From an uncultured Cohaesibacter sp. (GTDB taxonomy: Bacteria; Pseudomonadota; Alphaproteobacteria; Rhizobiales; Cohaesibacteraceae), in the NCBI RefSeq assembly GCF_963666525.1, contig NZ_OY762905.1, positions 1,966,001-2,030,000 of the forward strand: a DNA stretch of 64,000 nt, in the 5' to 3' direction. Both the position numbers and the translations under genes were made by a program. Positions within the stretch are counted from its first letter, which is position 1; each line of letters begins with the position of its first letter. Below are positions 34,739 through 61,718 of this stretch, in pieces. The notes beneath the pieces were generated by a model. The model was not told where the DNA came from, ran no database searches, and was given only the letters and a program-made list of their open reading frames with translations.

Positions 34739-36142
34739 TTAAAAATCCAGAACAGGGTCTGCCTTGATATCATTGATGCTGCGGATATCTTCCGCTGTGC
34801 TATCCACTTCGATAGCGACTGGCAGCTGCGAATACAAAGGCCGCTCAAACGCACGAAGCGTCATGAGCCGTGGCGGCACTTCAACAAAAGCCCCAAGGCC
34901 GTTGACCCGTCTTTCGACAAGGTTCCTAGCAAAAGCCGGAACCCCGGCCTTGTTACCCTTTGCCGTAAAGAAATTGCCCTTGACCTGAATGGTCCCAGCC
35001 AGAGCCTTCACAAAGTCTTTGACGAACTCCGGGTCCGGCGATTGTGGCTGTGTCCAAAAACTATCAATAGTCCCTTGATGTGTCAGACCCTTGATATCGA
35101 ATATGGCATGCCCGAGAACCTTCACAGGACACCCGGAGCGCACTGAATGCAGCCCAACGGTACTATTGATCATGATGCAGCCCTTTGCGTGCTTCAGCAT
35201 GAACGTCAGGTTCCCCCCAATGACATAGTGTACTCGATCGGAGACACCCAGTTCTTTCGCTTTCTTGCGAATGAATCTGCCCCAATGCTCAAACCCATTG
35301 TCGAGAGGATGGGCTTTCAAAATCAGATTGGTGCGAGTTCCTGTATTGCGAGCAAAAGAAACCAACGTGCTTTCAATTGCCTTCTTTTGATGCGGAAAAG
35401 GCGAATTCGACCTCAACTGATAATCACTTTGCAGCTGCAGAGAAAAGACATAAAACGGTCTTTTTTCACGGCCAAGCTTGGTAACGAGCCTGCGGGCCGC
35501 CACACTGCGGCGCTTCTCCAGAAACAGCCCCGGAATGCCGGAAATATATTCTACCAGTGGATTGTAATAGCGATCCGCTTTGTAGAATGGATACAAGAAC
35601 CACAGAAAGTAGCTTAGAAGGTTATAACTGACCTCAAAGACAATCTCCCTGGGTTTCGTGTAAGGATATTTCTGCTTCAAATCCGGTTCGTCGCATCGGC
35701 TGGCGACGGCACGAATCGCGTGCGGATCCGTAGGGAAATGAGAAAAGCCGGACATCCCGCCCCGTTCTAGCGTGATCCAATCCGGGCGCAGGTAACCGAA
35801 CTCATAAGCGTATGTCGGAATACCGCAATCGTTAGCAACCTTTGCAGCAATCTGGTGATAGGGCTTACGGTCTGCATAATAGACGATGTCGGTAACACCG
35901 TGTTTGTCGACAAATTCTCTCAGATAGCCTTCCCAATGAGAAAAAGGCAACCGGTAGTTAAACGCCTTCCTGCCCCACCACAGGATCGCATCACCCAAAC
36001 AGAAGTTGATACGCAACACCTCGTTGCCATCTTTCTCAAGACGGTCAGCGACATTTCTGGCGAAAAATGAAGGGTGACCCTGAAGAAAAAGAAAAACTCT
36101 CTTTATATTCTTCTCAGCAGGACTATGCAGTTCCATTGTCAC
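34739..36142 (-). CDS. kpsS: Capsular polysaccharide Kdo-transferase/export protein KpsS-like
   Basis: 467 residues (465 if the second Met is used). The KpsS/LipB pattern is clear: FLFLQGHPSFFARNVADRLEKDGNEVLRINFCLGD at the N-terminus, FEFGYLRPDWITLERGGMSGFSHFP, and the C-terminal donor-site region KAHPLDNG...LMHAKGCIMINSTVGL-like stretch with HAIFDIKGLTHQG. KpsS and KpsC are cytosolic beta-Kdo transferases that build the Kdo linker on lipid before capsule export. About 75 residues longer at the C-terminus than E. coli KpsS. Last gene of the leftward capsule locus. Confidence 0.85.
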   Translation of the reverse strand: MTMELHSPAEKNIKRVFLFLQGHPSFFARNVADRLEKDGNEVLRINFCLGDAILWWGRKAFNYRLPFSHWEGYLREFVDKHGVTDIVYYADRKPYHQIAAKVANDCGIPTYAYEFGYLRPDWITLERGGMSGFSHFPTDPHAIRAVASRCDEPDLKQKYPYTKPREIVFEVSYNLLSYFLWFLYPFYKADRYYNPLVEYISGIPGLFLEKRRSVAARRLVTKLGREKRPFYVFSLQLQSDYQLRSNSPFPHQKKAIESTLVSFARNTGTRTNLILKAHPLDNGFEHWGRFIRKKAKELGVSDRVHYVIGGNLTFMLKHAKGCIMINSTVGLHSVRSGCPVKVLGHAIFDIKGLTHQGTIDSFWTQPQSPDPEFVKDFVKALAGTIQVKGNFFTAKGNKAGVPAFARNLVERRVNGLGAFVEVPPRLMTLRAFERPLYSQLPVAIEVDSTAEDIRSINDIKADPVLDF

Positions 36143-36190
36143 GTATCACCCATCTCTGCCATCCTGTTTTACGTCACCAGAACAGCCCTA

Positions 36191-37318
36191 TCAATCAGCC
36201 ATATAATTCGACGTCTGAGCAACGTTCTTCACTGATGACGTCGCCATATTGAACAATTGAAGTAGTTTGCCAATTTCCACACTCGCTGCATTGGATACAA
36301 AAACGGAATCCTTGTCTTGCAAACGGAAGGACTGCGCGTAGAAGTATGAGCGAGCATGCTTCATATTAATACGATAAATCGTAGGGACCTTGCCACGAAC
36401 CTGCCGCGTGTATTTGATATTCATAGATTCGAGCAGCTTCGGATCTTCATAGCGAAAAACAAAGACCCCCGTCGCATCTGCGCGAATGTCATTCAAACCG
36501 CCAGCCGCAGCGATAGCTTCCAGAACAGAAATGCTGGAAGCGTCAAACGTGTAAACAGAAGGCTTCTTGACCGCGCCAAGCACGGTATACCGCTGAGGGT
36601 CATGCGCCAGATAGATCCGGTCTCCGCGAGCAACAAAAATGTTTTCATCCGGCTGGTTGATGACCGTCTCCAACTGCTGAACACCTTGGCGACTACCTCG
36701 CATCAGCGTGATGTAGGTTTCTCGCGCTGGGTATTTGGTACCACCTGCCTGCGCGACAACATCAAGTAGGCGAACGCCTTGCGACGGCAAAGGGTATAGA
36801 CCTGGCTTGGTGACATCGCCGCTTAGCGTGACAATGTTGTTCTCGTTACGAACAACATTGACCATTGCTTGCGGCTGGATTGCTTTGCCTTCTAAACTTT
36901 CGACAACCAGTTCCTGAATTTGCAGAGGTGTCTTGCCCTTGACCTTGATTGAACCGGTGTATGGCAGAGAAATCTCACCTTTTTCATTCACGACCACATT
37001 CGGGAATTCCGCGCCTTTGCCACTTCCGCTAGAAAACAGCCCCCCCTGATCAGCCTCGAACACGGTCACGGAGAGTACATCCCCTGCCCCCACTGTGGCC
37101 ACCGGCAAATGACGAGCTGTCGTCTTGAACTGACTGTAGAGGCCCAAGGGCATGAAGCGAGACAACCCATCCACAATTTGCGAATCAACATCAACAACGA
37201 GATACTCGCTTTCTTCGCTCTGCGTTTCGATCTCTGAAGATAGTGGCCCTTCTCTGGGAGTGATCGCGCATCCAGTAAGAGAGGCCGAGATAATCAAAAC
37301 TATCAGCGTTCTAAGCAT
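36191..37318 (-). CDS. Outer-membrane polysaccharide export lipoprotein (Wza/KpsD-like)
   Basis: 375 residues. Lipoprotein signal peptide MLRTLIVLIISASLTGC with lipobox LTGC (Cys17). Then a polysaccharide biosynthesis/export domain (about 75-165; GAGDVLSVTVFEADQGG...) and SLBB beta-grasp repeats (about 167-245 and 250-340; SGDVTKPGLYPLPSQGVRLLDVVAQAGG, LGAVKKPSVYTFDASSISVLEAIAAAGG). In the Wza/BexD/KpsD family such proteins form the outer-membrane exit channel. Sits 48 bases upstream of kpsS. Confidence 0.9.
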   Translation of the reverse strand: MLRTLIVLIISASLTGCAITPREGPLSSEIETQSEESEYLVVDVDSQIVDGLSRFMPLGLYSQFKTTARHLPVATVGAGDVLSVTVFEADQGGLFSSGSGKGAEFPNVVVNEKGEISLPYTGSIKVKGKTPLQIQELVVESLEGKAIQPQAMVNVVRNENNIVTLSGDVTKPGLYPLPSQGVRLLDVVAQAGGTKYPARETYITLMRGSRQGVQQLETVINQPDENIFVARGDRIYLAHDPQRYTVLGAVKKPSVYTFDASSISVLEAIAAAGGLNDIRADATGVFVFRYEDPKLLESMNIKYTRQVRGKVPTIYRINMKHARSYFYAQSFRLQDKDSVFVSNAASVEIGKLLQLFNMATSSVKNVAQTSNYMAD

Positions 37319-37589: not shown

Positions 37590-38693
37590 TTACAGTCCGA
37601 GACGAAAGGCAACCCTAGCCAAATAGAGCATAACCCTATCCCTACAAGATTCCCTTTTATTATTCCTTAATCGGAATAAACCGGAAATAGCATCCTCGGC
37701 CTCGCATCGTCGCAGGCTATCTAGCTCTACATACTGTGGATAGCAAATCATCGCCAAGAAAACGAGCTCATCCAAGGTGCGCAGCCGATTGCGGCGGGAG
37801 CAGCGCGTTCTGTCTTCACTTACGCCCCACCCGGCGTAAAAGGGCAGTCCATGAACGACCACCCGCTTGCCACGCAGCAATGCCTCAAAGCCCGAAAGTG
37901 AACTAATCGTCTCCACGACATCGCATTGCTCTATCAGTTGAATAATATCCGCATCGCTATTCACCGCATCGGCATAAATTCGCGTCTGCGCCTCAGTCAG
38001 ATTCCCCAGCCGCAATCCGTTGGACACGTCGGGATGTGGTTTGAAAATGATATAGGCATCAGGATTGGTCTGCCGAACCTGCTTTAACAATAGCAGGTTA
38101 GGATTTTCCCCTGATGCCAGATCAAGACTGTCACTGCGGCTCTTCCGGATGGAAGCGTCGTCGCTCACCTGTCCGGGAACCAGGATTTTCAAACGGTCAG
38201 TTTCAAAACCAATTGGTCTCGATTGCGCCCCAATATTGTATTTCGAGACACGTAATGCCACGACCTGCTCACGAAAAGCTTTGCCCCGTGCCCGCTCCTC
38301 GTCCGTGACTACGGCAGATTCCAGCATTAGTTCCAGATCGCTGGGCTGGGAGGGATCATAATAGATTCCGACTTCATCCATGATCAGAGAGGCTGCAGGA
38401 ACAAAAGCCGCTCCCAACCCGACCGAACGAATAAAGCCGTCCTCAACATTGATTATCGGAACACCCATCTCCTCACACGCGGAGCGCTGTTCATCACTCA
38501 ACCGTGACGTCCAAGCAAAGAGACTAGCTCCACTTGCCTTTGCCGCTTTAATCGCCCGGTGAAAGGACCAAAAAAACCGCGGCTTGCCCGGCAGATGCGC
38601 AAGCATTCCGCGGATCGAGCCACGGTTCCAGAAGCCAACGCCATAGATGACGGCTGGCCGGTCTTGCCAAAGTTTAATTTGCCCTGCCATCAA
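37590..38693 (-). CDS. Single-domain KpsC-like Kdo-transferase (RkpJ-like)
   Basis: 367 residues, about half of two-domain KpsC. The KpsC module signatures are present: VEDGFIRSVGLGAAFVPAASL, GIYYDPSQPSDLELML, VPGQVSDDASI, KPHPDVSNGLR, and GFEALLRGKRVVVHGLPFYAGWG. Expected role: a beta-Kdo transferase in the linker of a capsule glycolipid, in the cytosol at the inner membrane. Its ATG overlaps the stop of the SDR gene by 4 bases, tying it to the rkpA-G-H-like set. A second KpsC-like half is encoded at 48868. The 270-base gap before the KpsD-like gene is AT-rich and empty. Confidence 0.85.
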   Translation of the reverse strand: MMAGQIKLWQDRPAVIYGVGFWNRGSIRGMLAHLPGKPRFFWSFHRAIKAAKASGASLFAWTSRLSDEQRSACEEMGVPIINVEDGFIRSVGLGAAFVPAASLIMDEVGIYYDPSQPSDLELMLESAVVTDEERARGKAFREQVVALRVSKYNIGAQSRPIGFETDRLKILVPGQVSDDASIRKSRSDSLDLASGENPNLLLLKQVRQTNPDAYIIFKPHPDVSNGLRLGNLTEAQTRIYADAVNSDADIIQLIEQCDVVETISSLSGFEALLRGKRVVVHGLPFYAGWGVSEDRTRCSRRNRLRTLDELVFLAMICYPQYVELDSLRRCEAEDAISGLFRLRNNKRESCRDRVMLYLARVAFRLGL

Positions 38694-39496
38694 GATCTGT
38701 CCTCCCGGTCCGATGAATCCGGATAGGCGACATGATAGCGAAATGGCCGATTGACCCAGCGACGGAACCTGCCAGGCAATGCATTGCTGATAAGGATTAG
38801 CCCAAAGAGATAGCGGGGAAAAATGATTCGCTCCCGCCCTCGCTCCACACCGCGCAAAATGATCGAAGCCGCTTTACTGGCAGGGATGATCCCCGGCAGG
38901 GCTCCCATCTGGGCGGCGGTCTGCTGACTTTCGATATGGCCCGGATAGACCACACTGACCTTGACGCCATGCGTGGCGAGATCCTCTCCCAGCGCCCGCC
39001 CCCAGGCGGCAAGTCCAGCCTTGCTGGCACTATAGACCGGACTGTCCGGTTGCGGCTGAATGGCAGCAAGGGAACTGACAAGAACCAAATGGCCCCGCCG
39101 CCGTTCTTTCATCGCCTGGGCAAGACAATCCGTAAAGTGGATGGTTCCGGTAAGATTGACCGCCAGTTGCGCCCGCTGCTCTTTCCGGCTTTCAAGCAAA
39201 CCGTTCGGGCGACGCCCCGAAAAGACACCGGCGTTGCAAATCACCAGATCCGGCAGACCGGCCGTTTCGACAAAGGCCAATGCCTGCTCGATACTGTCCT
39301 CATCGGCAAGATCCAGCGGCAGGCAGGACACCTGCGCACCCGCCAATTCACAATGCCGTTTGACCGTCTCAAGAGCCGCCGTGCTGCGCGCTGTCAGGAT
39401 CAGCCGGATATCCTCAGCAGCACAGGCCATGGCCAGCGCAGCCCCCAGCCCCTTGCTGGCTCCGGTAATCAGAATGGAGCGCGGCACCTTGCCCAT
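38690..39496 (-). CDS. rkpH: Short-chain dehydrogenase/reductase (RkpH-like)
   Basis: 268 residues, classical SDR. NAD(P) motif TGASKGLGAAL (residues 11-21), NAG in VICNAGVFSGR, and catalytic Ser-Tyr-Lys in LVSSLAAIQPQPDSPVYSASKAG. A C-terminal hydrophobic segment (PRYLFGLILISNALPGRFRRWVN) suggests membrane contact. Placed directly after the alpha-oxoamine synthase gene (12 bases), it is well suited to reduce the 3-oxo-amine product to an amino alcohol; that step is inferred. Rhizobial rkpH has the same place and family. Confidence 0.82.
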   Translation of the reverse strand: MGKVPRSILITGASKGLGAALAMACAAEDIRLILTARSTAALETVKRHCELAGAQVSCLPLDLADEDSIEQALAFVETAGLPDLVICNAGVFSGRRPNGLLESRKEQRAQLAVNLTGTIHFTDCLAQAMKERRRGHLVLVSSLAAIQPQPDSPVYSASKAGLAAWGRALGEDLATHGVKVSVVYPGHIESQQTAAQMGALPGIIPASKAASIILRGVERGRERIIFPRYLFGLILISNALPGRFRRWVNRPFRYHVAYPDSSDREDRS

Positions 39497-39508
39497 CAGT
39501 CAAACCCG

Positions 39509-40873
39509 TCAGTCAGTAGTCAGATTGCCAAGTGATGTGGCAATGGAGAAATTTGCCTCTTCTAGCTTCCTCAGTTCCCGCGCCGTGATGTCAACCGCCT
39601 GTTGCAGTTGTTCTTCACTGTGCGTGGCACTGATGAAAAACCGCAGGCGCGCCGCATGCATTGGCACCGCAGGATAGGTGATCGGGAAGGCATAGATGCC
39701 ATTGTCCATCAGGTTGTTGCTCAGCTTGACGGCTCGCAAGCTGTCGCCAACGATCACCGGCACCACGCAGAATCCGGCGCTGTGCCCGGTATCAAGCCCT
39801 GCTGCCTTCGCCGCCTTCAGAAAGAACTGGCCATTGGACTGCAGCTTTTCCACCCGCCAGGGTTCGCGCTGCATGATTTCCAGTGACTTGGCCCCGGCAA
39901 CCGCAAGCGGGGCCGACAGGCCCACACTATACATGAAGCCAGATGCAAAGAATTTCAAAATGTCGATCAGCACCTGATTGCCGCAGATATAGCCACCACA
40001 ACCGCTCATGGTCTTGCTCATGGTGCCCATCCAGATATCAACCTTGGAGGGATCGACAGCCTTCTGCTCGAACAGGCCCTTGCCCGTTGCGCCCAGCACA
40101 CCCAGGGAATGGGCTTCGTCCACCATCAGCCAGACGCCGAACCGCTCCTTGATCTCAACCAGACGCGCCAGATCCGGCATGTCACCATCCATGGAATAGA
40201 GCCCCTCGACCACGATCATCACCCGATCATGAGCATTGCGGGTCTCTACCAAGATCCGTTCCAGATCGTCAAGGTCATTATGCTTGAAGGATCGCCGCGT
40301 CGCACCGGAAAGCTTGCAGCCCGTCGTCACCGAGTTGTGGCTATAGGCGTCAAACACCACCAGATCCGTCGGCCCGAGCAGCTCACCGATCGTCGAAACG
40401 TTGGTGGCATGGCCGGAAACGAAGACCAGTGCCGCTTCGCTTTGATAGAGCTCGGCCAGTTTCTTTTCCAGTGCACCATGAAACGGGCGTTCACCGGAGG
40501 TCGGACGTGAGCCGGAAACGGAGGTGCCAAAAGCGTCAATGGCATCCTTGGCCGCCTGATGCACCTCGTCTAGGCCATTCAGCCCCAGATAGTCATAGGA
40601 AGCAAAATTGATGAGCTCCTTGCCGTCGACGATTGTCGTCGCACCGGCACGGGTCTCATGCAGAACGAAATAGGGATCCCGTGTCTGTAGCCTTTCGGCC
40701 ATGTCGCGCTGGATAGCAATCTGTTGATAGAGATCCAGAGTCGCAAAGTCGGTCTTCGACAGGTCAACCTTGGCAGAAGCACCCCGTGTTGCAGCCGGCT
40801 TGGAAACGGCCCCCTTGGCCATGGAACGCGAGAGGTTGAGGATGGACTCCCGGTCAAATTGCTTCTTGGACAT
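39509..40873 (-). CDS. rkpG: Alpha-oxoamine synthase (RkpG-like; AONS/serine-palmitoyltransferase family)
   Basis: 454 residues, PLP fold-type I. SYDYLGLNG at the start of the core, FGTSVSGSRPTSGERPFHGALEKKLAEL, VFVSGHATNVSTIG, VDEAHSLGVLGATGKGL, and the Schiff-base Lys in GTMSKTMSGCGGY. The family joins an acyl thioester to an amino acid with loss of CO2. An N-terminal extension of about 60 residues precedes the core, as in RkpG proteins. Start ATG 40873 behind GGAG. It is next to a thioesterase-less PKS, so the acyl donor is probably the PKS-bound chain (inferred). Confidence 0.87.
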   Translation of the reverse strand: MSKKQFDRESILNLSRSMAKGAVSKPAATRGASAKVDLSKTDFATLDLYQQIAIQRDMAERLQTRDPYFVLHETRAGATTIVDGKELINFASYDYLGLNGLDEVHQAAKDAIDAFGTSVSGSRPTSGERPFHGALEKKLAELYQSEAALVFVSGHATNVSTIGELLGPTDLVVFDAYSHNSVTTGCKLSGATRRSFKHNDLDDLERILVETRNAHDRVMIVVEGLYSMDGDMPDLARLVEIKERFGVWLMVDEAHSLGVLGATGKGLFEQKAVDPSKVDIWMGTMSKTMSGCGGYICGNQVLIDILKFFASGFMYSVGLSAPLAVAGAKSLEIMQREPWRVEKLQSNGQFFLKAAKAAGLDTGHSAGFCVVPVIVGDSLRAVKLSNNLMDNGIYAFPITYPAVPMHAARLRFFISATHSEEQLQQAVDITARELRKLEEANFSIATSLGNLTTD

Positions 40874-41053: not shown

Positions 41054-44000
41054 TCACATGCCGCTCTTACGCATTTCCAACAGCTTTTCAGCTGCCTTGG
41101 ATGCCTCGCTGTCACTGCCGATATGCTGATGCAACAGCGTTTCCTCGGTAAAGGACAATTTGCTGTCGGCATCGCCCCGGATTCGTTCCAGCACGCGGGC
41201 AGCAATATCTTCAATCGTCGTCCCGTCGGCGATTGCACCCATCGGGATCTCGATATCCAGTTTCTGCTGGGCTGCTGTCCGCAGCTCCATGCCCATCAGG
41301 CTGTCCATGCCCAGGTCGGTCAGCGACCGCTTGAGGTTGATCTCTTCCACTGGCATGCGGAAGATGACCGCCACCTCATGGGCCAGAATCTTGGCGATCT
41401 CGCCGCGAGCGGCAACATCATCAAGCCCGTCAATCAGGCTGGCAACATCGATCGACTGCTGATCGCGCCGTGAGGACTGCGCCGCTTCCTTGAGCAGCAG
41501 GCCGTAAGCAGGCGTCTTCATGATTGCCAGATTGTCGCGAGCATAGCCCCAGTTCATCGGTGCCAGCGTGAGCGTCGCCGGAGCCTCGCCAACAGGCATC
41601 TTGTCCAGCATCTCGACAAGACGATCCATCGCCTGCCGTGCCTTGAACTCGATACCGCCCGTCGTCTTGGCAAGAATTTCAGCCGTCTGCTTGTCTCTGG
41701 CCAGAATGCCGACATCGGTGATGGCACCCCAGCCAACCGCCAACGCAGGCAGGCCTTGCTGCTGCCGCTTGCGTGCCAGACCATCCATATAGCTGTTTGC
41801 AGCCACATAGTTCGCCTGTCCCGGGTTGCCCATCAGCACGGATACCGACGAGAACAGCCAGAAGTAATCCAGTTCATCGGAACGGGTCAGATGATCAAGA
41901 TTGTTGCTCCCGACCACCTTCGGCATCAGCACCTTGCCGATCTGCGCATCACTCATGTTGGCCAGCAGCACATCATCCAGCACCGCAGCCATATGCATTA
42001 CGCCCTTGATCGGGCGCTCCTTGCGCAACGCCACCAGCAGGGCATCAAGGGCCGCAGCGTCGGACACGTCACATGGCCGCACCTCAAGGGCACAGCCCCG
42101 GACTGCCAGTTTCTTCTGCAGTTTCAGCCCATCCTCGGACATCTTGCCCGAACGGCTCGTCAGCACGATAGAACGCACACCATGATCGGCAAGCCAGAGC
42201 GCAACCTCAAGGCCAAACCCGCCAAGACCGCCAACAAGCACATGGTGCCCCGCGCCATCAACGCGGAAGCCGCCTTCGCTGGCCGGAGAGGCCATCGGCT
42301 CGGGCGCACGCACGACGATCTTGCCGATATGGCCCGAGCGCTGCATGAGACGGAAGGCATCGACAATGTCGGCGCTTTCGAACAGACGGTAAGGCAGTTG
42401 GGTGAACTGCTCGTCGGCAATCAGCCCCGACAATTCCCGGAACAGGCGCTTGGCCCGAGCTGGCTGCTTGTTCAGCAACTGATCGGCATCGATACCGAAA
42501 TAGCTGATGTTGCGACGGAAGGGCCGCAAGCCGATCTGGGTGTTGCCATAGAAGTCGCGCTTGCCCAATTCGAGGAATCGCCCGAACGGCCGCACCAATT
42601 CCAGACTGCGCTCCATCGCCTCGCCGAACAGCGAGTTGAGCACCACATCAACCCCTTCCTGATCCGGTCCATCGGCATCGCGCGTGATCGCCCGCACCTG
42701 ATCGACAAAATCAAGCGAACGGGTGTCCAGCACATGGTCGGCCCCGAGCATCCGCAGGAAGTCGCGCTTCTCGTCATTACCCGCAGTGGCGATGATCCGT
42801 GCCCCGCGCCATTTGGCAATCTGCACGGCGGCCAGACCGACAGCACCGGCAGCACCATGGATGAGGACCCATTCGCCCTCTTCAAGCCGGGCCAGATAAT
42901 GCAGCGCATAATAGCTCGTCAGGAAGGCAACCGGCATGGTCGCAGCAGCAACCAGATCAACACTTTCGGGCAGCTTCGAAACAGCGCTGTCCATCACCGT
43001 GACATGGGAGGCAAAGCTCGCCGGAGCCAGCGTCATCACCGGATCTCCGATCTTGAGATCGCGCACACCCTTGCCAACAGCAACAATCCGCCCCGAACAT
43101 TCAAAGCCGAGGGTCGGGCCGGCAAAGCCGTCTTCCAGCGCTTCCTCAGGCAACAACCCCTGCGCCCACATCACATCGCGGAAGTTCAGCCCGGCAGCAG
43201 CAACCTCGATCTCGATCTCTCCCTCAGCCGGAGCCTTGCGCCGGGTCGGGATCCACTGCAACCGGTCAAAGGATCCGGTACGCGGATGGTAGAGCTGACA
43301 GGCAGCGTCGGGGTCAGCAGTCCCCTGCCCCGAAACCGGCTTCGGCCAGCCACGGCGAATGCGAACAACGGTCTGCGAGGCCTCACCCAGCAGGACTTCG
43401 CGTTCTTCCCCCGGCACGTCGATCAGCGCACCAAGGCGGGCAACCTGATCCTCAAGCGAGAGACCGGCAGCAAAGTCCACCATGCGCACATCGTGATTTT
43501 CATATTCGTTGCTGACGGTGCGGCCAAACGACCAGACAGAGCTCTGGACCGGATTGACCGGCGCCTCGCCCGGCACCGGATAGCCGCCCGGAGCGACCAC
43601 CCACAGCCGCATGGCAACATCGGATGTCAGGCGCACCAGTTCGGCCAGCATGTGCAACCGCGGCGCAAGGCAATCTATTGCCTCCTTGCAATCGGCAAAG
43701 GCACCAGACACGCAAACCACGTCCAGATGACCATCCCGAGCAGCAGCCCGGATCGCGTCTGCCGCATCAGCAAGCCCCTTGCCAGCCTTGAGATCGACGC
43801 GAGCAACAGCCGTTGCCCCGACTGCCTTTTCCAGAGCTGCCGCGAAGGCCTTTTCGCTCTTGTCCTTGCTTTCCAGCAACAGAATGCAGCTTCTGTGCTC
43901 GCCATCAAGCGCGGGAACCTCAGCCGCGCCCGCCTCTCCAGCATCAGCGACAACAGACGCAGCCTTGGCCGCAGTCAGCAGATAGGCGCCGGACAGGTCG

Positions 44001-47000
44001 GTCTCGCCATCAGCATCAGCGAAAGGCACAAATGTGACAGGACCAAGCCCGGTAGCCTCGATCCAGCCGCGCCAGTCTTCCGCCATGCCATAGCTTGAAA
44101 CAGGGAAGGATGGATCGACAGAACCATCAAACCAGTGCTCGGCAGGGCCGAACACCACATCCTGAAACACATTCGCATCCGACAGGCTCATCAGAATCAG
44201 ACTGTCATCTGCCATAAGAGCAGGCAACGCATCCAGCATGGTCCCGGCCTGATCCACCATCTGCAGCCCATTGGCCGAGACCACCAGATCGAACGGCGCA
44301 AATGCCTCCAGAGCCTCAAGATCGGACTTGAGGGCAACCGCCTCGAAATTGATCGAGTTGGCAAACAGGATACCAAGACGGTCCATCAGCAATTTGTTGG
44401 AATCGGCAGCAACCAGAAGCCCCTTCTTGGCCTCGATCAGCGGCAGCAGTACCTTGGTGAGACGTGCCCCGGCAACACCGAACTCCAGCACGCGCAGCGG
44501 ACGGCCCTCCGGCCATGCAGCCAGAACCCGCTCAAGCGCTGCCATCACCTGATCCACATGGGCTTCAGCCAGAGGGGCTGAACTCAAATGCTGTTCAAAC
44601 AGGTCGTGGGAATAGAGATCCCGCACCAGCGGCTCGCCGCCAAAGCTAGTGTCCATCGTCTTCAGCAGATCCGGCAGACGCATCAGGGCGTGATTGAGCA
44701 TCACGCAATCGGCAGACCAGCGCGGATTTTCGCCAAGCAGTATCTGCAGAACCTGCGCCACCTCCGGCAGCCCACTTTCCCCGGCCAGCACCCAGCCGTC
44801 ATCGGTCGGCGTGGCAAGGCCTGACTGTTCACAGGTCGCGATCAGGGCACCAAAAATCGCTTTGCGATGGGTTGACCGGACCCGGATGTCCTCATCCGCC
44901 TCATCGCCGGAAAGACCCTCCCGCTCGGCAAGCCTTGGCAGGCTGGACTGGCTCAGGGCGAGATCGGCATCCGCAAACTGGCACAGGACGTCATAGGCCC
45001 CCCGCCGACTGGCGGCATGCAGCAGCAACTGGCCGTCTTCCGTCGCCTGACGATCAGCACCAACGGTCTGGCTGACGGATTGCAGGATCGCCGCCATGTC
45101 AGGCCGCGCACTGGAAGCCACCCCCTCCGGCAGGGCCACCGTCAGGGAATCATAATAGTAGGCCAGCCGTTCCAGCCCCTGCCGCTGCACCAGCGCCGAG
45201 GCGCGGAAGCGCCCGTCCCTGAGGGTCGCGACCAGAGACCCATCCTCGCCAAACATGTTGATGTCAGCCTTGATGCCGCGCGAATTGGACCGAAGTACAT
45301 GAATACGGGCCGAGCGAACCGCAACGCCGGAGCGCAGAATGCGCAATCGGCCGAACCGCACCGGAATGAAGGCCATCTTCTCGGAACCCTTCTCAAGGCT
45401 CTCGTAAAGGGTATTCAGACCATGGAAACAGGCGTCGAAATCCAGCGGATGCAATGCGTAGGGCGCAGCCAGTTCTTCCCGTTTGCTCGAAAAGCCATCG
45501 CGCTCGCCAATGACAATTTCAATGAAATCGTCACCGTGGCGCTGACAGTAAGTCATGCGCTGGAAGGCCGGGCCGAAATCCAGCCCGAACTGGCGGGAAA
45601 TGGCATAGATCGCCTCGATTTCCTCTGGCGGGGTGGTCAGAGACAGCGAAGGCGCACAAAGATCATGGTCCGCATATGCGTCCCCTATGTCACCGGGAAT
45701 CTTGGCGACACGACATCTGGCGTGCAATTGCCATTCATCATCGACAAGGCGCGCACGGCTCGAAATCTCGACAACGCCGGATGTCATGTCGAGACGGGTC
45801 AGGATCGAGGTCGACTGATCCGCATTGAGCGGCAGGGCCTGCAACAGGTCCATGTCGCGCAGCTCGACCCGATCCGACTTGAAGCCGACCTGGGCTGCGG
45901 CAAGCGCCATTTCCGCAAAGGCGGCACCGGGCAGAATGACCTTGCCGTCAACCTTGTGATGTTCCAGATAGGGGATCAGAGCCGTATCAAGCTCGGTTGA
46001 CCAGACATGTTCTTCATCGCGGATCTGCGGGCCGAGCAGGGCGTGCGCCGTGACCGCATCATTGAAGATATCGAAGGCCTCGCTGCTCGGGCGAATCTTG
46101 AACGGCTTGAGCTGCCATGGATAGGCAGGCAACGGGGCCAGCAGAGCCTGCTTCTTGCCGAACACCACATCCCGATCAAACGGCAAGCCATTGGCGATGG
46201 CCCGTCCGACCGACAGCAGAACCGGATCGATGGCCTTGTCTTCCTTCTGCAACAGGCTCTCGATGGCAACAACCGTCTGGGCGCGATCGCGCGCGATCTC
46301 GGCTATGTAGCTCTTGAGGATGGGGCGTGGCCCGATTTCGATGAACTGGGTCTGGCCGTCAGCAAACGCAGCCTCGACAGCACCGAGGAAATGCACCGGC
46401 TGCCGCACGTTGTTCCACCAGTATCCCCCCCCCATTTCGCCGCCATCAAGGCGAGTGCCGGTCACGGCAGAATAGAAGGGAATGGTCGCCTTGGTCGGCT
46501 TGATATGTACCAGATCACCCAGCAACCCGTCCCGGATCGGCTCGACCACCGTGGAATGGAAAGGATAGTTGATATCCAGCATCTTGGCCGCAAGGCGTTT
46601 CTTGCGTGCGAACTTGAGGAAGGCTTCCAGCTCTTGCGTCCGCCCGGAGAGGGTAAGGGACTTGTCCGTATTGGTCGCCGAGATCTCGACCCCGTCAAAG
46701 CCTTCCGATGCCAGCAAGGCCTCGGTGTCGGCAACCGAGAGTTTGATGACGGCCATCCTGCCTTCACCGGCAACGGCTTCCTGATGATGCGAGCGCCAGT
46801 AGATGACCTCGACAGCCTGCTTGAGGGTCAGGGCGCCACAGGCCCATCCGGCAGCAACCTCGCCAACCGAATGCCCCATCACCCCGCCAACAGCAAGCCC
46901 GGCAGCCTTGAGAGACTGTGTCAGGGCAACCTGCACCGCAAACAGCAGCGGCTGCGCCACTGACGTCAGCTTGAGATCGTCCTTGAGGGTCTCCTCGAAC

Positions 47001-48867: not shown

Positions 48868-49875
48868 CTAAAACTTAATTAGTGTTTTTTGCTTAAGTTC
48901 CGTAATATAGTCAATAGCTCTTTCAATCTCACAAATTTTGCCTGTTTCCAAATCGATGTATCGTGGATAAAGAATCAGAGTTGCCATCGCCAATTGTAAA
49001 AACGGAATAGTCTGGCGACGTATTGGCGCAGCGAGAAAATCATCTGTAAGACCCCACCCTGCATAAAAGGGCATGCCGAAACAACTAACGGGCTTGCCCC
49101 ATATAAGAGCCTCAAACCCCATCTGCGATGTCACCGTATATACCCTAGTCGCATTTTCGATAAGGCGAGAAGGCAAACATCCCTCGGCTATCACATGAAC
49201 ATTTGGCATCTGCTGCAACTGCTCAACGTCGAAATGCCCCGATTTGGAGCGAGTAAACACGTCCGGATGCATCTTGACCACAATGTCCATGCCCGGGTTT
49301 TGTGCGCACGCAGCCGCAAACATTTTCTCAAACGATGATCCGTCCGCCATACCATATGCAATGGAGGCATCATTCTTGACCTGATCGATGACCAGCACAT
49401 AATCGTCAGGCAATGATCCGGAAAACTCACCCCCTTCGTTATATTTGGAGAGCCGTGAAAGGCGCCAGCGCTCGAGCACAGCACCAATACGGGCCTCACC
49501 CACATCGCAAAGGGGTTTTTGTGCCAGTTCTTCCAAAAGAGAGGGACCATGGGCATCATAATAGATACCCAGAGTATCCAAAACCACCGACACCGTTGGG
49601 TCACCGCGCCTAAAGGAACGCATGAAGCCGTCTTCCAGCAAAAGCACCGGCTTTCGACTACCTTTCGCCATCCGCGCGGCAAGCCACCCTGAACGCCGTC
49701 CCCAGCCCACAAAAGCTCCGCACTTCACGTTCATTAACGGCAAACAAAAAGCAGGCCTTGAGCCAAGAATGACGGATACAGACTGATCCCGACACAATTG
49801 CAACGAGGGCGAGGCATATGCTACTTCCCGCCCAATCACCCTATAATACAGGCTTTTCAAAACTGAAGATATCAT
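48868..49875 (-). CDS. Second single-domain KpsC-like Kdo-transferase
   Basis: 335 residues. Same module as the protein encoded at 37590: LLEDGFMRSFRRGDPTVSVVLDTLGIYYDAHGPSLLEELA, YVLVIDQVKNDASIAYG, VKMHPDVFTRSKSG, and MGFEALIWGKPVSCFGMPFYAGWGLTDD. The two differ at GLGA (here RRGD) and share only the family core, so they are likely the separated counterparts of the two modules of KpsC and not a recent duplication. Lower GC than the PKS gene that follows. Starts after a 393-base AT-rich gap. Confidence 0.85.
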   Translation of the reverse strand: MISSVLKSLYYRVIGREVAYASPSLQLCRDQSVSVILGSRPAFCLPLMNVKCGAFVGWGRRSGWLAARMAKGSRKPVLLLEDGFMRSFRRGDPTVSVVLDTLGIYYDAHGPSLLEELAQKPLCDVGEARIGAVLERWRLSRLSKYNEGGEFSGSLPDDYVLVIDQVKNDASIAYGMADGSSFEKMFAAACAQNPGMDIVVKMHPDVFTRSKSGHFDVEQLQQMPNVHVIAEGCLPSRLIENATRVYTVTSQMGFEALIWGKPVSCFGMPFYAGWGLTDDFLAAPIRRQTIPFLQLAMATLILYPRYIDLETGKICEIERAIDYITELKQKTLIKF

Positions 49876-50268: not shown

Positions 50269-51384
50269 TCATGTTGCGTGATCTCTAACTGAATAAAATA
50301 CCAAGATACCGATAGCCCAAGCCAAAGCAGATACTAAGAAAGTGACAAGTATATTCATCAATCTTTTGGGATAGAGAGAAATCTCAGGCATTAAAGGCTC
50401 AACAAATGTAACCAGATATCGCTGCCGGCTGCTTGCTTCTAGTCGAGCCTTTTCGACCGCCACCATTGCACTAGTAACAGCTTTTTCTGCAAATTCTTGA
50501 TCCATTAACAGATCCCTATAAGTTTGAATCAGCTGAGAAATTGACTGTTGATCGCCGCCACCTTCTTCACTGATTTTCGAACGTTCCTGAGTAATCTGGC
50601 TTCGCATAGAAGCTATTCTAGTTCTTAGCATTTGAAGTGATGGAGCGGTTTCATCAAGGTATTTGCTTTTTGCCCTCAACTCCGCTTCTGCTTTAGCTAT
50701 CTCCTGCTCCAACCCTGACAGAGTCTCGATTTGCGATTCTGCCGTTTTGGAAGGATCAATTATTTTTTCTCTATCACGAAAATCTCTAACTTGTCGACGG
50801 ATTTCCTTCAACTCAGCTTGCTTAAGAATGAGCTCCGCGTTCGACTGCCTCAATGCGTCAACGCGCTCCTGCTCAGACAAATTGTTAACCAACTCCTCAC
50901 TCAAACTGAGCACTTTCTTCGCAACCAAAACTGCGTTTTCTGGAGTAAAGGCCTTAACTTCGATAACAATTATCTGCGAGGTTGTATCGTAGCTAATTGA
51001 GATCATTTTTTTCCAATACTCCACAACGTCTTCCATAGGAGCGTCTCTATGGAGCGCTGCAACAAAATCCGCGTGTTCTCCCCCATAGACTTCAAACAAA
51101 TCTATCTGGCTTTCGAGCTTTTCTAGCATTGGTCGACTAACCAAATAATCCATCAGAATATATGAATCGGCAGTAGTTGAGCCACTACCGGTTGTTCCCG
51201 TTACCAATCCGAGGATATCAGAAGACACTACATTATTGGCCCCTCTCACCGAAAAACGCGTCTCCACAGCATAGAGGTTAGAAGCAATGAGCATGAAGTA
51301 AGTAGCCGCGACAATTGTGGGCAATATTATGACAATTAAAGCAGACAGCTTCGTGAAAATTCTTCTTTTTTCTTGCGGTCTCAT
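50269..51384 (-). CDS. kpsE: Capsule export inner-membrane/periplasmic protein (KpsE-like, PCP-3 family)
   Basis: 371 residues. Topology of the polysaccharide co-polymerase family: membrane span at about 14-34 (LIVIILPTIVAATYFMLIA), large periplasmic part with long coiled coil (about 165-320, rich in E/K/Q/R and Leu), and a second span near the C-terminus (NILVTFLVSALAWAIGILVFY), after the conserved PxxPxxP-like segment PLMPEISLYPKR. KpsE-type proteins bridge the ABC transporter to the outer-membrane channel. Strongly AT-rich DNA. Confidence 0.87.
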   Translation of the reverse strand: MRPQEKRRIFTKLSALIVIILPTIVAATYFMLIASNLYAVETRFSVRGANNVVSSDILGLVTGTTGSGSTTADSYILMDYLVSRPMLEKLESQIDLFEVYGGEHADFVAALHRDAPMEDVVEYWKKMISISYDTTSQIIVIEVKAFTPENAVLVAKKVLSLSEELVNNLSEQERVDALRQSNAELILKQAELKEIRRQVRDFRDREKIIDPSKTAESQIETLSGLEQEIAKAEAELRAKSKYLDETAPSLQMLRTRIASMRSQITQERSKISEEGGGDQQSISQLIQTYRDLLMDQEFAEKAVTSAMVAVEKARLEASSRQRYLVTFVEPLMPEISLYPKRLMNILVTFLVSALAWAIGILVFYSVRDHAT

Positions 51385-51479
51385 TTTTTCACTTTACTGT
51401 TAAATATAATAATATCTAATTTGATTACACAGATCTTTAGCAATCAATTTTTACAAAATACGATTTAAATTGTCGAAAA

Positions 51480-52136
51480 TTATGTTTTCATATACTGTTC
51501 ATGGTTCTTTATAGCCTCATCCAAATCTTCAAATACGTTAATTTTTCCATTTCGCATTATGATGCCCATATCGCAATAATCCCTCAACGTGTTATTTGAA
51601 TGAGAAACCATTATAATTTTTGCAGTTTCGAGCTTCTCCATAAATGCCTTTTTAGATTTTTCTTTAAATCTTGAATCTCCAACTGCGGTAATTTCGTCAA
51701 CTAAATAGCATTCGAAATCTATAGCTAGCGACACCCCAAAGGATAATCTTGCTTTCATTCCCGAAGAGTATGTCCGAACCGGCGCGTAAAAATGGCGACC
51801 CAATTCCGCAAATTTCTCGACGTATTCGATAACTTGCTCCGTATCTTTCCCATAAATTCGGGCAACGAAACGCGTATTTTCTATACCTGTAAGAGACCCG
51901 TTAAAACTACCTGCAAATCCTAAAGGGAAAGAAACTTCTAAATTGCGTCTAACGTGCCCAGTATCTGGCAATTCAGCTCCGGAGATCATTCTTAAGACGG
52001 TAGACTTACCCGCACCATTTTCGCCGATCAAACCAATATTTCTCTTAGGAAAGGTAAAATCGAGCGTTTCAAGAATAGTTTTATAACTGCCGCCAGGCAA
52101 GCTGTATCTCTTTGACACATTATCGAAGGTAATCAT
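51480..52136 (-). CDS. kpsT: Capsule ABC exporter ATPase KpsT
   Basis: 218 residues, short as is typical of KpsT/Wzt-type ATPases of group 2 capsules. Walker A GENGAGKST (about 38-46), signature YSSGMKARL, Walker B CYLVDEITAVGD (the polysaccharide-exporter form with E-I-T), switch His in MVSHS. Drives export of the finished glycolipid across the inner membrane with KpsM. Only 1 base separates it from kpsM. Confidence 0.92.
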   Translation of the reverse strand: MITFDNVSKRYSLPGGSYKTILETLDFTFPKRNIGLIGENGAGKSTVLRMISGAELPDTGHVRRNLEVSFPLGFAGSFNGSLTGIENTRFVARIYGKDTEQVIEYVEKFAELGRHFYAPVRTYSSGMKARLSFGVSLAIDFECYLVDEITAVGDSRFKEKSKKAFMEKLETAKIIMVSHSNNTLRDYCDMGIIMRNGKINVFEDLDEAIKNHEQYMKT

Positions 52137-52137
52137 G

Positions 52138-52935
52138 TCACCTCAACCTAATTACTCGTTCAGCTGCAAGGCCAACGAATGTCAATATTATCCCACATGC
52201 GAATAAGTACGCAATACTAACATGTGTATCACGATAATGCTGAAAATACCCCAAACGAACGTATTCAACCCCATGAATAATAGGATTCCAAACAAGAATA
52301 TCTCTAAAAACAGGAGGAATAGATTCCAGAGAATAAAAAATACCAGAGATCCACATCAGAGGAGTTGCTAATATCTTATAAAAATTCATCCAAGAGGATA
52401 TTTTTATTGAAACAACAGCGTTTATGGTACCAACCCCAAAACCCAAAAGAGAAATACCTGCCAACCCCTCACCAATAACCAACAGATTACTGGGCAAAGG
52501 CGCACCCGTAAAAACGATCATGCCCGCTGTTATTATGAACAAAATCAATATGAAAGTAGCCGCTTCTAAAATTGCTCTAGCAATAATTGAGTCTAGCTCT
52601 TTTACAATAGGAAAATTCAGCAACGCTTGATTGGCATCTATCGCATTTCCACATTGACTTGCAATTTCTCCATACAGTCTGAAAGGCACTACTCCCAGAG
52701 CGACAAACAGCCCCATATTATTCCCATATGGTGCTGCAGCCCCCCGTAAACTGAACAACATCGAAATTACAACAATCCAAGCGATCGGGTTTGCCAAAGC
52801 CCACAGATATCCAAGCTGAGATCGACCGAAACGAACCCTCGTCTCTCGCAAGATCAATGCACCAATAACCCGAGCCTGAACTAGGGCAGCCTCTCTCAAC
52901 ATTGACTTAATGCTCCAATTCAGCTTTCCCCCCAA
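52138..52935 (-). CDS. kpsM: Capsule ABC exporter permease KpsM
   Basis: 265 residues, ABC-2 type permease. Six hydrophobic segments; N-terminal amphipathic region VIGALILRETRVRFGRSQLGYLWALANP is the KpsM/BexB signature. NPIIHGVEYVRLGYF near residue 218 is the other conserved site. Forms the homodimeric channel for the capsule polymer. Upstream gap of 99 bases to the NeuA-HAD gene. Confidence 0.92.
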   Translation of the reverse strand: MGGKLNWSIKSMLREAALVQARVIGALILRETRVRFGRSQLGYLWALANPIAWIVVISMLFSLRGAAAPYGNNMGLFVALGVVPFRLYGEIASQCGNAIDANQALLNFPIVKELDSIIARAILEAATFILILFIITAGMIVFTGAPLPSNLLVIGEGLAGISLLGFGVGTINAVVSIKISSWMNFYKILATPLMWISGIFYSLESIPPVFRDILVWNPIIHGVEYVRLGYFQHYRDTHVSIAYLFACGIILTFVGLAAERVIRLR

Positions 52936-53034
52936 AGAAGCTCACATGATCGCAAACGTTCCGGGGCGCCATATCCCATGACTAACAAAGAAGAACAATA
53001 CGTTATGAGATCAACAGCATTCGACACGGAGCAA

Positions 53035-54207
53035 TTAATGCCCGCTCCCATCGCTCAAAATAAGATCGGATAGCCCCCTGAGAGCCCCTTTACCGCCTTT
53101 TTCTGGCAGAATAATGTCAGCGATTTGAAGAACCGAAGAAACGGCATCTGAAGGACAGAGCCCCAGTGCTGCATTTTTCATGCAGGCAATGTCATTGATA
53201 TCGTTTCCGACATAAGCAATCTCGGACCAGTCCAGACCGTTTGCCCTCAGCCAATCCGTCAGGACAGCCTCTTTCTGATCGACGCCATGGATGACTTCCA
53301 CCTGAAGTTTTTCGCCCCTTTTCTGGACGACAACATTCTTCTCTTTGGAGAGGATTATTACGCGATAGCCAGCCTCGCGCAACAGCTCAAGCCCCATTCC
53401 ATCCCTCCGGCTGCAAACAACAGATTCCTGCCCCAGCTCATTGACTGTCACGAGGTCATCTGTGTGCACTCCGTCAAAGTCGGTAACAATAACTTTGACG
53501 TTTCGCAGAGCCTCAGCCTTGCTGGATTGTCGATCCAGACTCCCGCACAGGGATACCGCGATGTCCCAATCCTGCAAACTATCGATCTCAAAGACCAGCG
53601 TATCGATGGGGACAGGCACAAGAGATCCGCAGAACCGGTGCCCGGCCTTTCGAAACGCATCAACATTCATCACGTAGATTGCGCCCGTTTCCAGAAACTG
53701 GGGCTTCAGATCCTGCCGCCGCAAGCGCTGACGCGAGTGATCATGATTGACACCGAGACCATACCCATTCTCATCGAGAGACCACAGGAAGCCATGATTG
53801 TCAGAAACGGAGAAAGCACTGTCCGCCTCCTTATCCTCAAATGCTGCGACGACGGCATCAATATCTTCAGACGTCGTAAAAGGGGAGGTGCATTGTAGAA
53901 AGACAAGCGTCTGCACCTCTTCCCCCCGTCGCTTTATCTCATCCAGAACATGGAACAAGGCGCTCTCTGATGTAGCAGAGTCATTTGCCAGAGCGTCCGG
54001 GCGCTTGATAGGAATCGCGCCCCATTCTGTTGCGATTTCCAAGATCTCGTCATCATCACTCGACACAAAAACCGCATCAACACTCTTCGCCCCCAATGCA
54101 GCACGGATAGACCGTGCCACTAGAGGTATCCCGCCAAGCAGGCGTTTATTCTTTCTAGGAACGCCTTTGGATCCACCCCGAGCGGGGATAACGGCAATAT
54201 TTGTCAT
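53035..54207 (-). CDS. neuA: CMP-nonulosonate cytidylyltransferase fused to a HAD phosphatase domain (NeuA-HAD)
   Basis: 390 residues in two parts. Residues 1-225: cytidylyltransferase (AVIPARGGSKGVPRKN nucleotide motif, LVFLQCTSPFTTSEDID, GAIYVMN). Residues 230-390: HAD phosphatase of the KdsC/YrbI type (VTDFDGVHTDD motif I, VIILSKEKN motif II region, YVGNDINDIACM motif IV). The fusion resembles animal CMP-sialate synthases and some bacterial KDN enzymes in which the phosphatase removes a 9-phosphate. It activates a nonulosonic acid to its CMP form, or activates and dephosphorylates it. Placed 42 bases after the NeuB gene. Low GC. Confidence 0.88.
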   Translation of the reverse strand: MTNIAVIPARGGSKGVPRKNKRLLGGIPLVARSIRAALGAKSVDAVFVSSDDDEILEIATEWGAIPIKRPDALANDSATSESALFHVLDEIKRRGEEVQTLVFLQCTSPFTTSEDIDAVVAAFEDKEADSAFSVSDNHGFLWSLDENGYGLGVNHDHSRQRLRRQDLKPQFLETGAIYVMNVDAFRKAGHRFCGSLVPVPIDTLVFEIDSLQDWDIAVSLCGSLDRQSSKAEALRNVKVIVTDFDGVHTDDLVTVNELGQESVVCSRRDGMGLELLREAGYRVIILSKEKNVVVQKRGEKLQVEVIHGVDQKEAVLTDWLRANGLDWSEIAYVGNDINDIACMKNAALGLCPSDAVSSVLQIADIILPEKGGKGALRGLSDLILSDGSGH

Positions 54208-54249
54208 AACTACTCTATCCCGATAGTACTCGCTTAAGTCAGCAGAAAT

Positions 54250-55182
54250 TCAACGAGAAACTTGCGACCCGTGTCTTTCTTCGTTCCATTTGAGCTTGTC
54301 GCGCTGAACCTGCTCAACAGGAAGAATTTCTGTGCTCTTGTAGGTAAGAGCCTTTTCGACATTCGCGACATCGCGGCAGAGGCGACGCAGTCCATCCGGC
54401 TCCAGGCTGGCAGCATGGTCCGTACCCTTGAACGTCCGGTCCAGAGTGAAGTGGCGTTCGATGTAACCAAAGGTGCCTTTGCCGTAGACTTTCTCACCCA
54501 GCTTGCCTGCAGAAAGTGCAGCCACGTCAGCAGCGATACCGAGGTGATGGCCGGAGAAACCGATGAACTTTACCTTGTCACCATAGAGCTCCTGCAAGCG
54601 ATTGATTTCAAAGATGCAGATCTCTTCAAACGCTACCGGGTAGCCTGATGTACAGGCATAAAGAACGAGATCCTTGGAGCGGCCACGGTCTTCATAGAAC
54701 TTGACCAGATTGGCGATTTCGTCGTGCGTGGTCATGCCGGTAGAGACATGAATTTCACCATCGTAGTGCTTGCAGAGATAATCCTGCAACTCATAATGCT
54801 GGTTGGTCGCAGACGGCAGCTTGATGAGCGACGGCTTCAGAGAAGCGATTTCTTTTGCCGAGGTCAAGTCCCACACGGAGGTGCTGTATTCGATGCCAGC
54901 CATCTGGCACTCTTCCATCAATTCCCGATGCTGCTCAACCGTAAACTCAAGAAACTCGCGATGAGCGCCATAAGTGGCACCGTAGGAGTTTTCCGGCACC
55001 GGATGCGGCGTGTCATACTCTTTTGGTGTCAGCAATTCGCGATTGTTGCGCTTCTGAAACTTGGCGACATGGGCATGGCAAACTCGTGCAGCAACTTGAA
55101 TAAGTTCCTTAGCAAGATCCATCCTGCCCATATGGTTACAACCAATTTCAGCAATAATTTTTACATCACTACAACATTTCAT
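54250..55182 (-). CDS. neuB: NeuB-family nonulosonic acid synthase lacking the SAF domain
   Basis: 310 residues from ATG 55182 behind GAGG; an upstream start at 55212 has none. TIM-barrel synthase with IIAEIGCNHMGRMDLAKELI, KFQKRN, YSTSVWDLTSA, IKLPSATNQHYEL, STGMTTHDEI and the late ERHFTLDRTFKGTDHAASLEP motif. It condenses PEP with a hexose or N-acetylhexosamine to a nine-carbon 2-keto acid. The C-terminal antifreeze-like (SAF) domain of ordinary NeuB (about 60 residues) is missing; the protein ends about 30 residues after VEKAL. No neuC-like epimerase lies in the window. Confidence 0.87.
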   Translation of the reverse strand: MKCCSDVKIIAEIGCNHMGRMDLAKELIQVAARVCHAHVAKFQKRNNRELLTPKEYDTPHPVPENSYGATYGAHREFLEFTVEQHRELMEECQMAGIEYSTSVWDLTSAKEIASLKPSLIKLPSATNQHYELQDYLCKHYDGEIHVSTGMTTHDEIANLVKFYEDRGRSKDLVLYACTSGYPVAFEEICIFEINRLQELYGDKVKFIGFSGHHLGIAADVAALSAGKLGEKVYGKGTFGYIERHFTLDRTFKGTDHAASLEPDGLRRLCRDVANVEKALTYKSTEILPVEQVQRDKLKWNEERHGSQVSR

Positions 55183-61711: not shown

Positions 61712-61718
61712 TTTCTGC

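Follow-up and report, generated by a model that had tools for sequence, protein, structure and literature searches.

A complete rkp/wcb-type capsule locus in an uncultured Cohaesibacter, and a lineage of KpsS that appears to follow its lipid genes

Capsules exported by ABC transporters are the subject of this report, and in particular one capsule locus in an uncultured Cohaesibacter sp. of the Alphaproteobacteria (NCBI RefSeq assembly GCF_963666525.1). It lies in a stretch of 64,000 nucleotides, positions 1,966,001 to 2,030,000 of contig NZ_OY762905.1. We call this whole stretch the window and give coordinates within it. According to the list of open reading frames (ORFs) of the window, the locus consists of twelve intact minus-strand ORFs running from 55212 down to 34739. 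Besides export genes it encodes transferases for 3-deoxy-D-manno-oct-2-ulosonic acid (Kdo), a polyketide synthase (PKS), an alpha-oxoamine synthase (AONS) and a short-chain dehydrogenase/reductase (SDR). In the order of transcription the genes are:

54250..55212, minus strand: NeuB-family nonulosonate synthase, 320 amino acids (PF03102, 1.3e-57, NeuB being the sole Pfam domain; TIGR03569, 162 bits, under the cut-off)
53035..54207, minus strand: CMP-nonulosonate synthetase fused to a haloacid dehalogenase (HAD) phosphatase of KdsC/Kdn-9-phosphate type (PF02348, 2.3e-20; Protein Data Bank (PDB) matches to NeuA and HAD; TIGR03584 PseF, 137 bits, and NF058599 Kdn-9-P phosphatase, 95 bits, both under the cut-off)
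52138..52935, minus strand: KpsM, capsule ABC transporter permease (PF01061, 3.7e-15; NF050053, 127 bits against a curated cut-off of 300)
51480..52136, minus strand: KpsT, capsule ABC transporter ATPase (PF00005, 9.9e-14; 46% identity to KpsT of an E. coli kps locus)
50269..51384, minus strand: KpsE, inner-membrane polysaccharide co-polymerase (TIGR01010, 3.3e-71, 240 bits against a curated cut-off of 437.5)
48868..49875, minus strand: single-domain homologue of the KpsC N-domain, expected to add Kdo in beta-(2-4) linkage (PF05159, about 1e-39; best PDB matches 6mgc and 6mgb)
41054..48760, minus strand: PKS of RkpA/WcbR type, 2568 amino acids (Pfam order ketosynthase (KS), acyltransferase (AT), dehydratase (DH), a weak methyltransferase (MT)-like region, enoylreductase (ER), ketoreductase (KR), acyl carrier protein (ACP))
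39509..40873, minus strand: AONS of RkpG type (PF00155, 4.4e-52)
38690..39496, minus strand: SDR of RkpH type, probable 3-keto reductase (PF00106, 2e-41; motifs TGASKGLG and YSASK)
37590..38693, minus strand: single-domain homologue of the KpsC C-domain, expected to add Kdo in beta-(2-7) linkage (PF05159, about 1e-39; closest structure 6mgd)
36191..37318, minus strand: KpsD/Wza-like outer-membrane polysaccharide export protein (PF02563 and SLBB domains; 33% identity to the S. meliloti export protein adjoining its PKS)
34739..36142, minus strand: KpsS, initiating beta-Kdo transferase, carrying Y199 (PF05159, 5.8e-73; NF050054, 233 bits against a curated cut-off of 600)

An earlier, sequence-only reading of this DNA had named KpsS, two KpsC-like proteins, a KpsD-like protein, KpsE, KpsT, KpsM, PKS, AONS and SDR, and each of these is indeed an intact minus-strand ORF with domain matches. 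Its count of twelve genes is also right, the two that it left unnamed being NeuB and the synthetase/phosphatase fusion, though the block begins at 55212 and not at 55182. The close packing that it described is borne out: the SDR gene overlaps the downstream gene for the KpsC C-domain by 4 bases, and the widest gap is 393 bases. Since the kps proteins score under the NCBIfam curated cut-offs of the named equivalogs, we regard them as divergent homologues. The exporter set of an ABC-transporter-dependent, group 2-like capsule is there (KpsM, KpsT, KpsE and a KpsD-like protein), and so are, by homology, KpsS and both KpsC transferase modules. As in rkp and wcb loci, a mono-modular reducing type I PKS of the RkpA/WcbR kind adjoins the AONS, with an SDR and a KpsS-like gene in the same locus. 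From these domain assignments it is near certain that this is a complete rkp/wcb-type, ABC-transporter-dependent capsule locus.

Motifs were found in the PKS for KS, AT, DH and ACP; simple motif patterns gave no match for ER and KR, though Pfam detects both domains. The MT-like region between DH and ER reaches 19.7 bits, under the cut-off. Over 2588 columns the protein is 39% identical to the S. meliloti PKS. Because no thioesterase domain was found in the PKS, the AONS probably frees the chain by condensation with an amino acid. The AONS has the pyridoxal phosphate lysine (K287). Among solved structures its top scores are to serine palmitoyltransferases (8guh and 3a2b, 214 bits), with AONS/KBL entries up to 204; in NCBIfam BioF ranks first, every score being under the cut-off. 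The product of the PKS, AONS and SDR is likely a sphingoid-like amino alcohol.

A search of the whole 5.18-Mb genome for PF05159 (E <= 0.001) returns KpsS and the two KpsC-like proteins only. The protein at 48868-49875 has 41% identity to the N-domain of E. coli KpsC (185 bits, versus 154 for the C-domain) and scores 311 on an N-domain model versus 213 on a C-domain model. The protein at 37590-38693 has 43% identity to the C-domain (236 bits, versus 114 for the N-domain). The two KpsC-like genes thus appear to be the N- and C-domains of KpsC encoded as separate proteins; that they might be extra copies of KpsS or a duplicated KpsC was rejected, since they divide into the two types. A single-domain KpsC enzyme is already on record, from a 'dismutans' species. 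Alignment to E. coli KpsC, with the position of the catalytic Asp counted off a peptide quoted in the literature, indicates that the catalytic Asp and His are kept in all three transferases of the locus. With KpsS and the two KpsC proteins, the locus has homologues for all three activities that build the Kdo linker in E. coli.

The sequence-only reading took the locus for a hybrid of two gene sets and held that it would, if right, define a distinct class of capsule anchor. Comparison does not support a mixture of two normally separate systems, or a new class of locus. On pSymB of S. meliloti Ak57 one stretch holds KpsF, KpsS, an unannotated ORF, SDR, AONS, PKS and a KpsD-like polysaccharide export gene. 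Like the window, it joins PKS-AONS-SDR with KpsS; there KpsS comes after the one unannotated ORF, the KpsD-like gene adjoins the PKS, and KpsF is not far off. (It is by gene order that the names rkpA, G, H, I and J are applied in S. meliloti.) Identity to the window proteins is 44.5% for KpsS, 50% for AONS and 39% for PKS; the SDR and the export protein are also homologous. Unlike the S. meliloti stretch, the window block itself holds the export genes and both KpsC domains, in addition to NeuB and the CMP-nonulosonate synthetase fusion. A Shinella plasmid has KpsS, PKS, AONS, SDR, two KpsE, KpsT, KpsM and glycosyltransferases in one block, and their homology to the window proteins was confirmed. 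A Nocardia stretch that carried no annotation was left out of the comparison. Stappiaceae (Roseibium, Stappia, Hongsoonwoonella) are among the closest relatives both in KpsS and in the KpsC C-domain protein (KpsC_C). G482, a genome of the same order as the window, matches Stappia sediminis (G197) in the place and score of its KpsS, which points to the order Hyphomicrobiales. In three Roseibium loci the order SDR-KpsC_C-KpsS-KpsS-KpsD adjoins PKS-AONS; in Stappiaceae, however, PKS-AONS is convergent with the other genes and KpsS is duplicated, while in the window all genes of the block point the same way and KpsS is single.

Outside the Alphaproteobacteria the Burkholderia wcb cluster likewise combines a WcbR-type PKS with genes for capsule biosynthesis and export. 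Passages of PMC3908369 describe both wcb and rkp clusters in these terms, and those of PMC10752968 list KpsC, KpsD, KpsS, WcbR and WcbQ for one Halomonas genome. In Burkholderia lata and Ralstonia pickettii the PKS-AONS pair shares its contig with a KpsS gene some 11-12 kb off. In three Burkholderia/Ralstonia genomes KpsC is one ORF with both parts (the N-part being partial in two), unlike the split KpsC of the window, and near the AONS of these genomes there is no NeuB match. The E. coli kps locus is like the window in KpsM/T/E, KpsD-type export, KpsS and both KpsC activities, but the E. coli plasmid kps stretch has no PKS, AONS or SDR. The same kinds of genes therefore make up the rkp clusters of Sinorhizobium and the wcb clusters of Burkholderia, and the idea of a mixture of systems that are separate elsewhere is rejected by S. 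meliloti Ak57, Shinella and the clusters of PMC3908369. A relation to the sponge swf-type PKS was likewise rejected, because the PKS sits among capsule genes and, according to the passages of PMC3908369, the other genes of wcb clusters are absent from swf.

How regularly do the lipid genes occur with KpsS? A profile of six AONS proteins was used to collect the best-scoring 80 named loci, which are not a random sample; they come from alpha-, beta- and gammaproteobacteria. Here and below, related genomes are counted separately and are not independent, and a genome is called lipid-gene-positive if its AONS scores at least 400 bits. A PKS match adjoins the AONS in 78 of the 80 loci, and 40 have an SDR homologue (at least 80 bits). 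A kps gene is present in 45 of the 80, or in 38 of the 57 loci of at least 20 kb, the other 19 of these having none within the stretch. The window NeuB and CMP-synthetase found no match in the 80 stretches. Had the PKS and AONS genes accompanied another pathway and not kps genes, the sequence-only reading would by its own account have been wrong, yet a KpsS-type PF05159 protein is found genome-wide in 65 of the 80 AONS-positive genomes (46 of 48 in a first batch, 19 of 32 in a second that consists mostly of metagenome-assembled genomes, MAGs). In an evenly drawn sample of the class such a protein occurs in 12 of 190 genomes, one of them partial. In a sample of the phylum KpsS is found in 14 of the 16 AONS-positive genomes versus 43 of the 382 others. 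Here genome G526 (we use our own handles where genomes or loci must be told apart) was counted positive despite one stop within the frame, and eight genomes with an AONS of 300-390 bits were counted negative (G412, G561, G270, G539, G408, G022, G380 and G391; only G022 has KpsS).

Some loci have the lipid genes and seemingly no Kdo transferases. PKS-AONS adjoins KpsE/M/T in L061, L094 and G189a (L040-L041), and the corresponding genomes G196, G626 and G189, one of which is a MAG, have no PF05159 match. These are apparently capsule loci with lipid genes that lack beta-Kdo transferases of the PF05159 family. One could suppose from them that the PKS lipid is a Kdo-independent capsule anchor in some loci without KpsS and KpsC, and that loci like that of the window combine or inherit both. 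There is a precedent in the Vi antigen, which has a diacyl-HexNAc anchor of its own. We consider this improbable: KpsS is present in most AONS-positive genomes, as just described, and the 13 genomes of the second batch that lack it, G626 included, are all titled MAG and may be incomplete. The only other AONS-positive genome without KpsS, apart from the three that we take up below, is G541, with one weak PF05159 match.

The form of KpsC also differs among these stretches. In 19 lipid-gene-negative stretches KpsC has two domains in 17, a partial N-part in one and the C-domain only in one (G534). Among 28 lipid-gene-positive stretches both parts are in a single ORF in ten (three with a partial N-part), 16 have the C-type only and one the N-type only; the window, with two separate genes, is the remaining one. 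These counts cover stretches rather than whole genomes, and in some genomes single-domain PF05159 proteins sit elsewhere. Stretches with only the C-type, beta-2,7 KpsC (L331-L334, L338, L339, L345, L346 and others) would fit the capsular polysaccharide (KPS) of S. meliloti 1021, which passages of PMC5539429 report as a beta-2,7 Kdo homopolymer.

In E. coli, according to the literature, KpsS adds the first Kdo to the lipid, and a change of acceptor should therefore show in the lineage of KpsS. A KpsS tree of 93 rows, 71 with and 22 without lipid genes, needs 3 changes of label versus 19.8 when labels are shuffled. A more careful tree, of 46 genomes, needs 2 versus a shuffled mean of 14.9. All 27 positives and three negatives (G534, G521 and G544) fall in one clade (support 97/93), with 16 negatives opposite, and the test does not reject a tree on which the positives form one clade (p-AU 0.179). 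For the KpsC C-domain of the same 46 genomes 9 changes are needed versus about 15, and a single clade is rejected (p-AU 8e-6). The KpsE tree needs 13 versus 18.0; with almost the same set of genomes, 3 are enough for KpsS. As to the samples, the 44- and 46-row trees use only the best-scoring copy from genomes with two KpsS, the KpsE tree has 54 rows including second copies and two genomes without KpsS, and the KpsC tree leaves out G198, which has the N-type only, and G233, where no KpsC was found. A distant PKS of 305-326 bits is present in four lipid-gene-negative genomes, all of one family (f24). Taxonomy was rejected as the cause of the clade: it spans alpha-, beta- and gammaproteobacteria, and KpsS of other alphaproteobacteria free of lipid genes lies outside it, as does KpsS of E. 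coli. The trees suggest that KpsS is evolutionarily coupled with the lipid genes and follows them more closely than either KpsC or KpsE. We did not find this link in a search of the open-access literature, outside which most subscription journals lie.

A simple explanation of such coupling would be that KpsS and the lipid genes travel together as a cluster and have no chemistry in common. In 11 of 17 genomes AONS and KpsS do share a contig, no more than 15 kb apart. In the other six they are on different contigs, mostly of draft assemblies, and all six KpsS belong to the same clade. In one of the six, G319, KpsS lies more than 320 kb from both ends of its own contig, so physical linkage alone fails to explain the coupling. 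Moreover, the KpsC C-domains adjoin the SDR or KpsS in several loci and still track the label less well. For these reasons mere co-inheritance seems to us very unlikely as the full account.

The KpsS alignment also yields a marker. A scan of the columns of the 93-row alignment found two that separate the groups; they correspond to residues 25 and 199 of the window KpsS. All 71 of the 71 positive rows have Tyr at position 199, which none of the 19 negatives or the three phylogenetic exceptions has; the residue sits in a segment of KpsS that has no counterpart in KpsC, and E. coli KpsS does not have this Tyr. Since Y199 came from scanning all columns, it was tried on 43 held-out KpsS, where Tyr occurs in 23 of 25 positives (G641 has Thr and G611 Phe) and in none of 18 negatives. 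This set comprised all 21 unused positive genomes with KpsS and 18 of the 24 unused negatives of the phylum sample, many being close kin of the rows used before. D240 and H278 are invariant or nearly so among KpsS.

The following scheme can be proposed. The gene set, the domain order, the motifs and the coupling of KpsS with the lipid genes are what sequences provide; each enzymatic step is taken from the enzyme family concerned. The PKS would assemble a reduced long acyl chain on its own ACP, the AONS would free it through decarboxylative condensation with an amino acid, and the SDR would reduce the ketone to give a sphingoid-like amino alcohol. KpsS would then attach the first Kdo to this lipid or a derivative of it, and the two single-domain KpsC proteins would lengthen the beta-2,7/beta-2,4 Kdo linker. 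Finally, a nonulosonate-containing polymer would be added and exported by KpsM/T/E/D. NeuB and the synthetase/phosphatase fusion suggest that a nonulosonate is made via a 9-phosphate. One further feature of the window may have a bearing on the polymer:

60770..62796, plus strand: GT8 glycosyltransferase and CST-I-type sialyltransferase-like gene (PF01501, 5e-37; PF06002, 2.5e-28), past a cluster of insertion sequences (IS)

Taken with the NeuB and fusion genes, this pair suggests that the polymer probably contains nonulosonate.

The critical step is the one catalyzed by KpsS. That the PKS/AONS/SDR lipid, or a phosphorylated form of it, is the Kdo acceptor of KpsS seems to us an evenly balanced proposition. 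A more general version, which we hold with somewhat more reserve, is that there are two classes of KpsS with different acceptors. The first would use phosphatidylglycerol. The other, alpha-, beta- and gammaproteobacterial and marked by Y199, would use a PKS-made sphingoid-like amino alcohol processed by AONS and SDR, or a phosphorylated derivative, and rkp/wcb capsules would have a dedicated anchor lipid. The sequence-only reading had already taken the PKS lipid as the probable acceptor. The co-occurrence of the lipid genes with KpsS, whose lineage tracks them more closely than KpsC and KpsE, speaks for it; the anchor reported for S. meliloti 1021 speaks against it. Nor is the central idea new, since passages of PMC3557214 mention the product of rkpA and rkpGHIJ as a possible 'lipid carrier or anchor'. 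By the titles cited there, work of the 1990s had already connected the rhizobial K-antigen with a gene cluster resembling fatty acid synthase, and our literature search did not find the identity of its product. What the comparison adds is support that we did not find in print, and it makes the question of the acceptor directly testable.

Several observations weigh against the PKS lipid as acceptor. In passages of PMC7902896 the KPS of S. meliloti 1021 is a Kdo polymer on a phospholipid anchor; passages of PMC5539429 and a title cited there also give it a lipid or phospholipid anchor, and the same source counts rkpA among the genes affecting this KPS. A review of 2025 takes phosphatidylglycerol as the conserved acceptor of KpsS and as the lipid that generally anchors ABC-dependent capsules. 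A search for PF05159 finds nothing in G196 (Azorhizobium), G232 (Bosea) and G189, three AONS-positive genomes whose titles do not call them MAGs, and so the lipid can serve without KpsS. G534, G521 and G544, which have neither an AONS of RkpG grade nor a PKS of RkpA grade, have their KpsS within the clade or at its base. KpsC and KpsE also beat nearly all shuffles (0-1 and 5-9 of 500, respectively, are as low); these controls follow the label too, and their contrast with KpsS is a matter of degree. Gene-cluster co-inheritance could mimic functional coupling. Two of the 25 held-out positives do not have Y199, and a single family supplies 16 of the 18 held-out negatives. Y199 itself may touch the acceptor, or it may do no more than mark the clade.

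The reports on S. meliloti lead naturally to another possibility. KpsS may still act on phosphatidylglycerol, the PKS-AONS-SDR lipid being a separate accessory such as a second anchor, an export lipid or an aid to surface retention. Consistent with this, 18 positions of KpsS, including D240 and H278, are common to both lineages. Such an arrangement, however, does not predict that KpsS would track the lipid genes more than KpsE or KpsC do, and we judge it unlikely, if still to be taken seriously. If KpsS does use the PKS lipid, a phosphorylated sphingoid-like derivative of it may have been taken for a 'phospholipid' in S. meliloti. Whatever the acceptor is, the comparison narrows the question of the anchor to a single enzyme (KpsS), a single clade and a single residue, and so shows where a second kind of anchor should be sought.

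Other genes near PKS-AONS deserve mention. In three loci (L094 12020-14408, L242 34441-36845 and L104 12565-13485) there are a cytochrome P450 and an LpxL-like acyltransferase, which hint at extra tailoring of the lipid. As general partners they are weak candidates, with homologues in 6 and 2 of the 80 loci. By its position the unannotated ORF of S. meliloti is RkpI, and it has a Shinella homologue that carries a PF00884 sulfatase domain; these ORFs (L241 9243-10963 and L242 30401-31996) belong to the sulfatase superfamily and have a long N-terminal part. Presumably the RkpI-type protein resembles phosphoglycerol or phosphoethanolamine transferases. Weaker homologues adjoin the lipid genes in Burkholderia, Ralstonia and Halomonas and adjoin KpsS in G534 and G544. 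An RkpI homologue is within the stretch in 27 of the 80 loci; as it is not universal, it was not used to define rkp/wcb loci. With the Shinella homologue as query, no match was found in the window or, in a search without a positive control, in the source genome, and a mechanism based on RkpI was therefore dropped.

The right flank of the capsule block (55432-60140 and 62904-63976) is occupied by a piece of an IS110-type transposase, an IS66 transposase with small neighbouring ORFs, a piece of an IS3-type integrase and other transposase-like ORFs. The GT8/CST-I-like pair may share a capsule island with the NeuB and CMP-nonulosonate genes.

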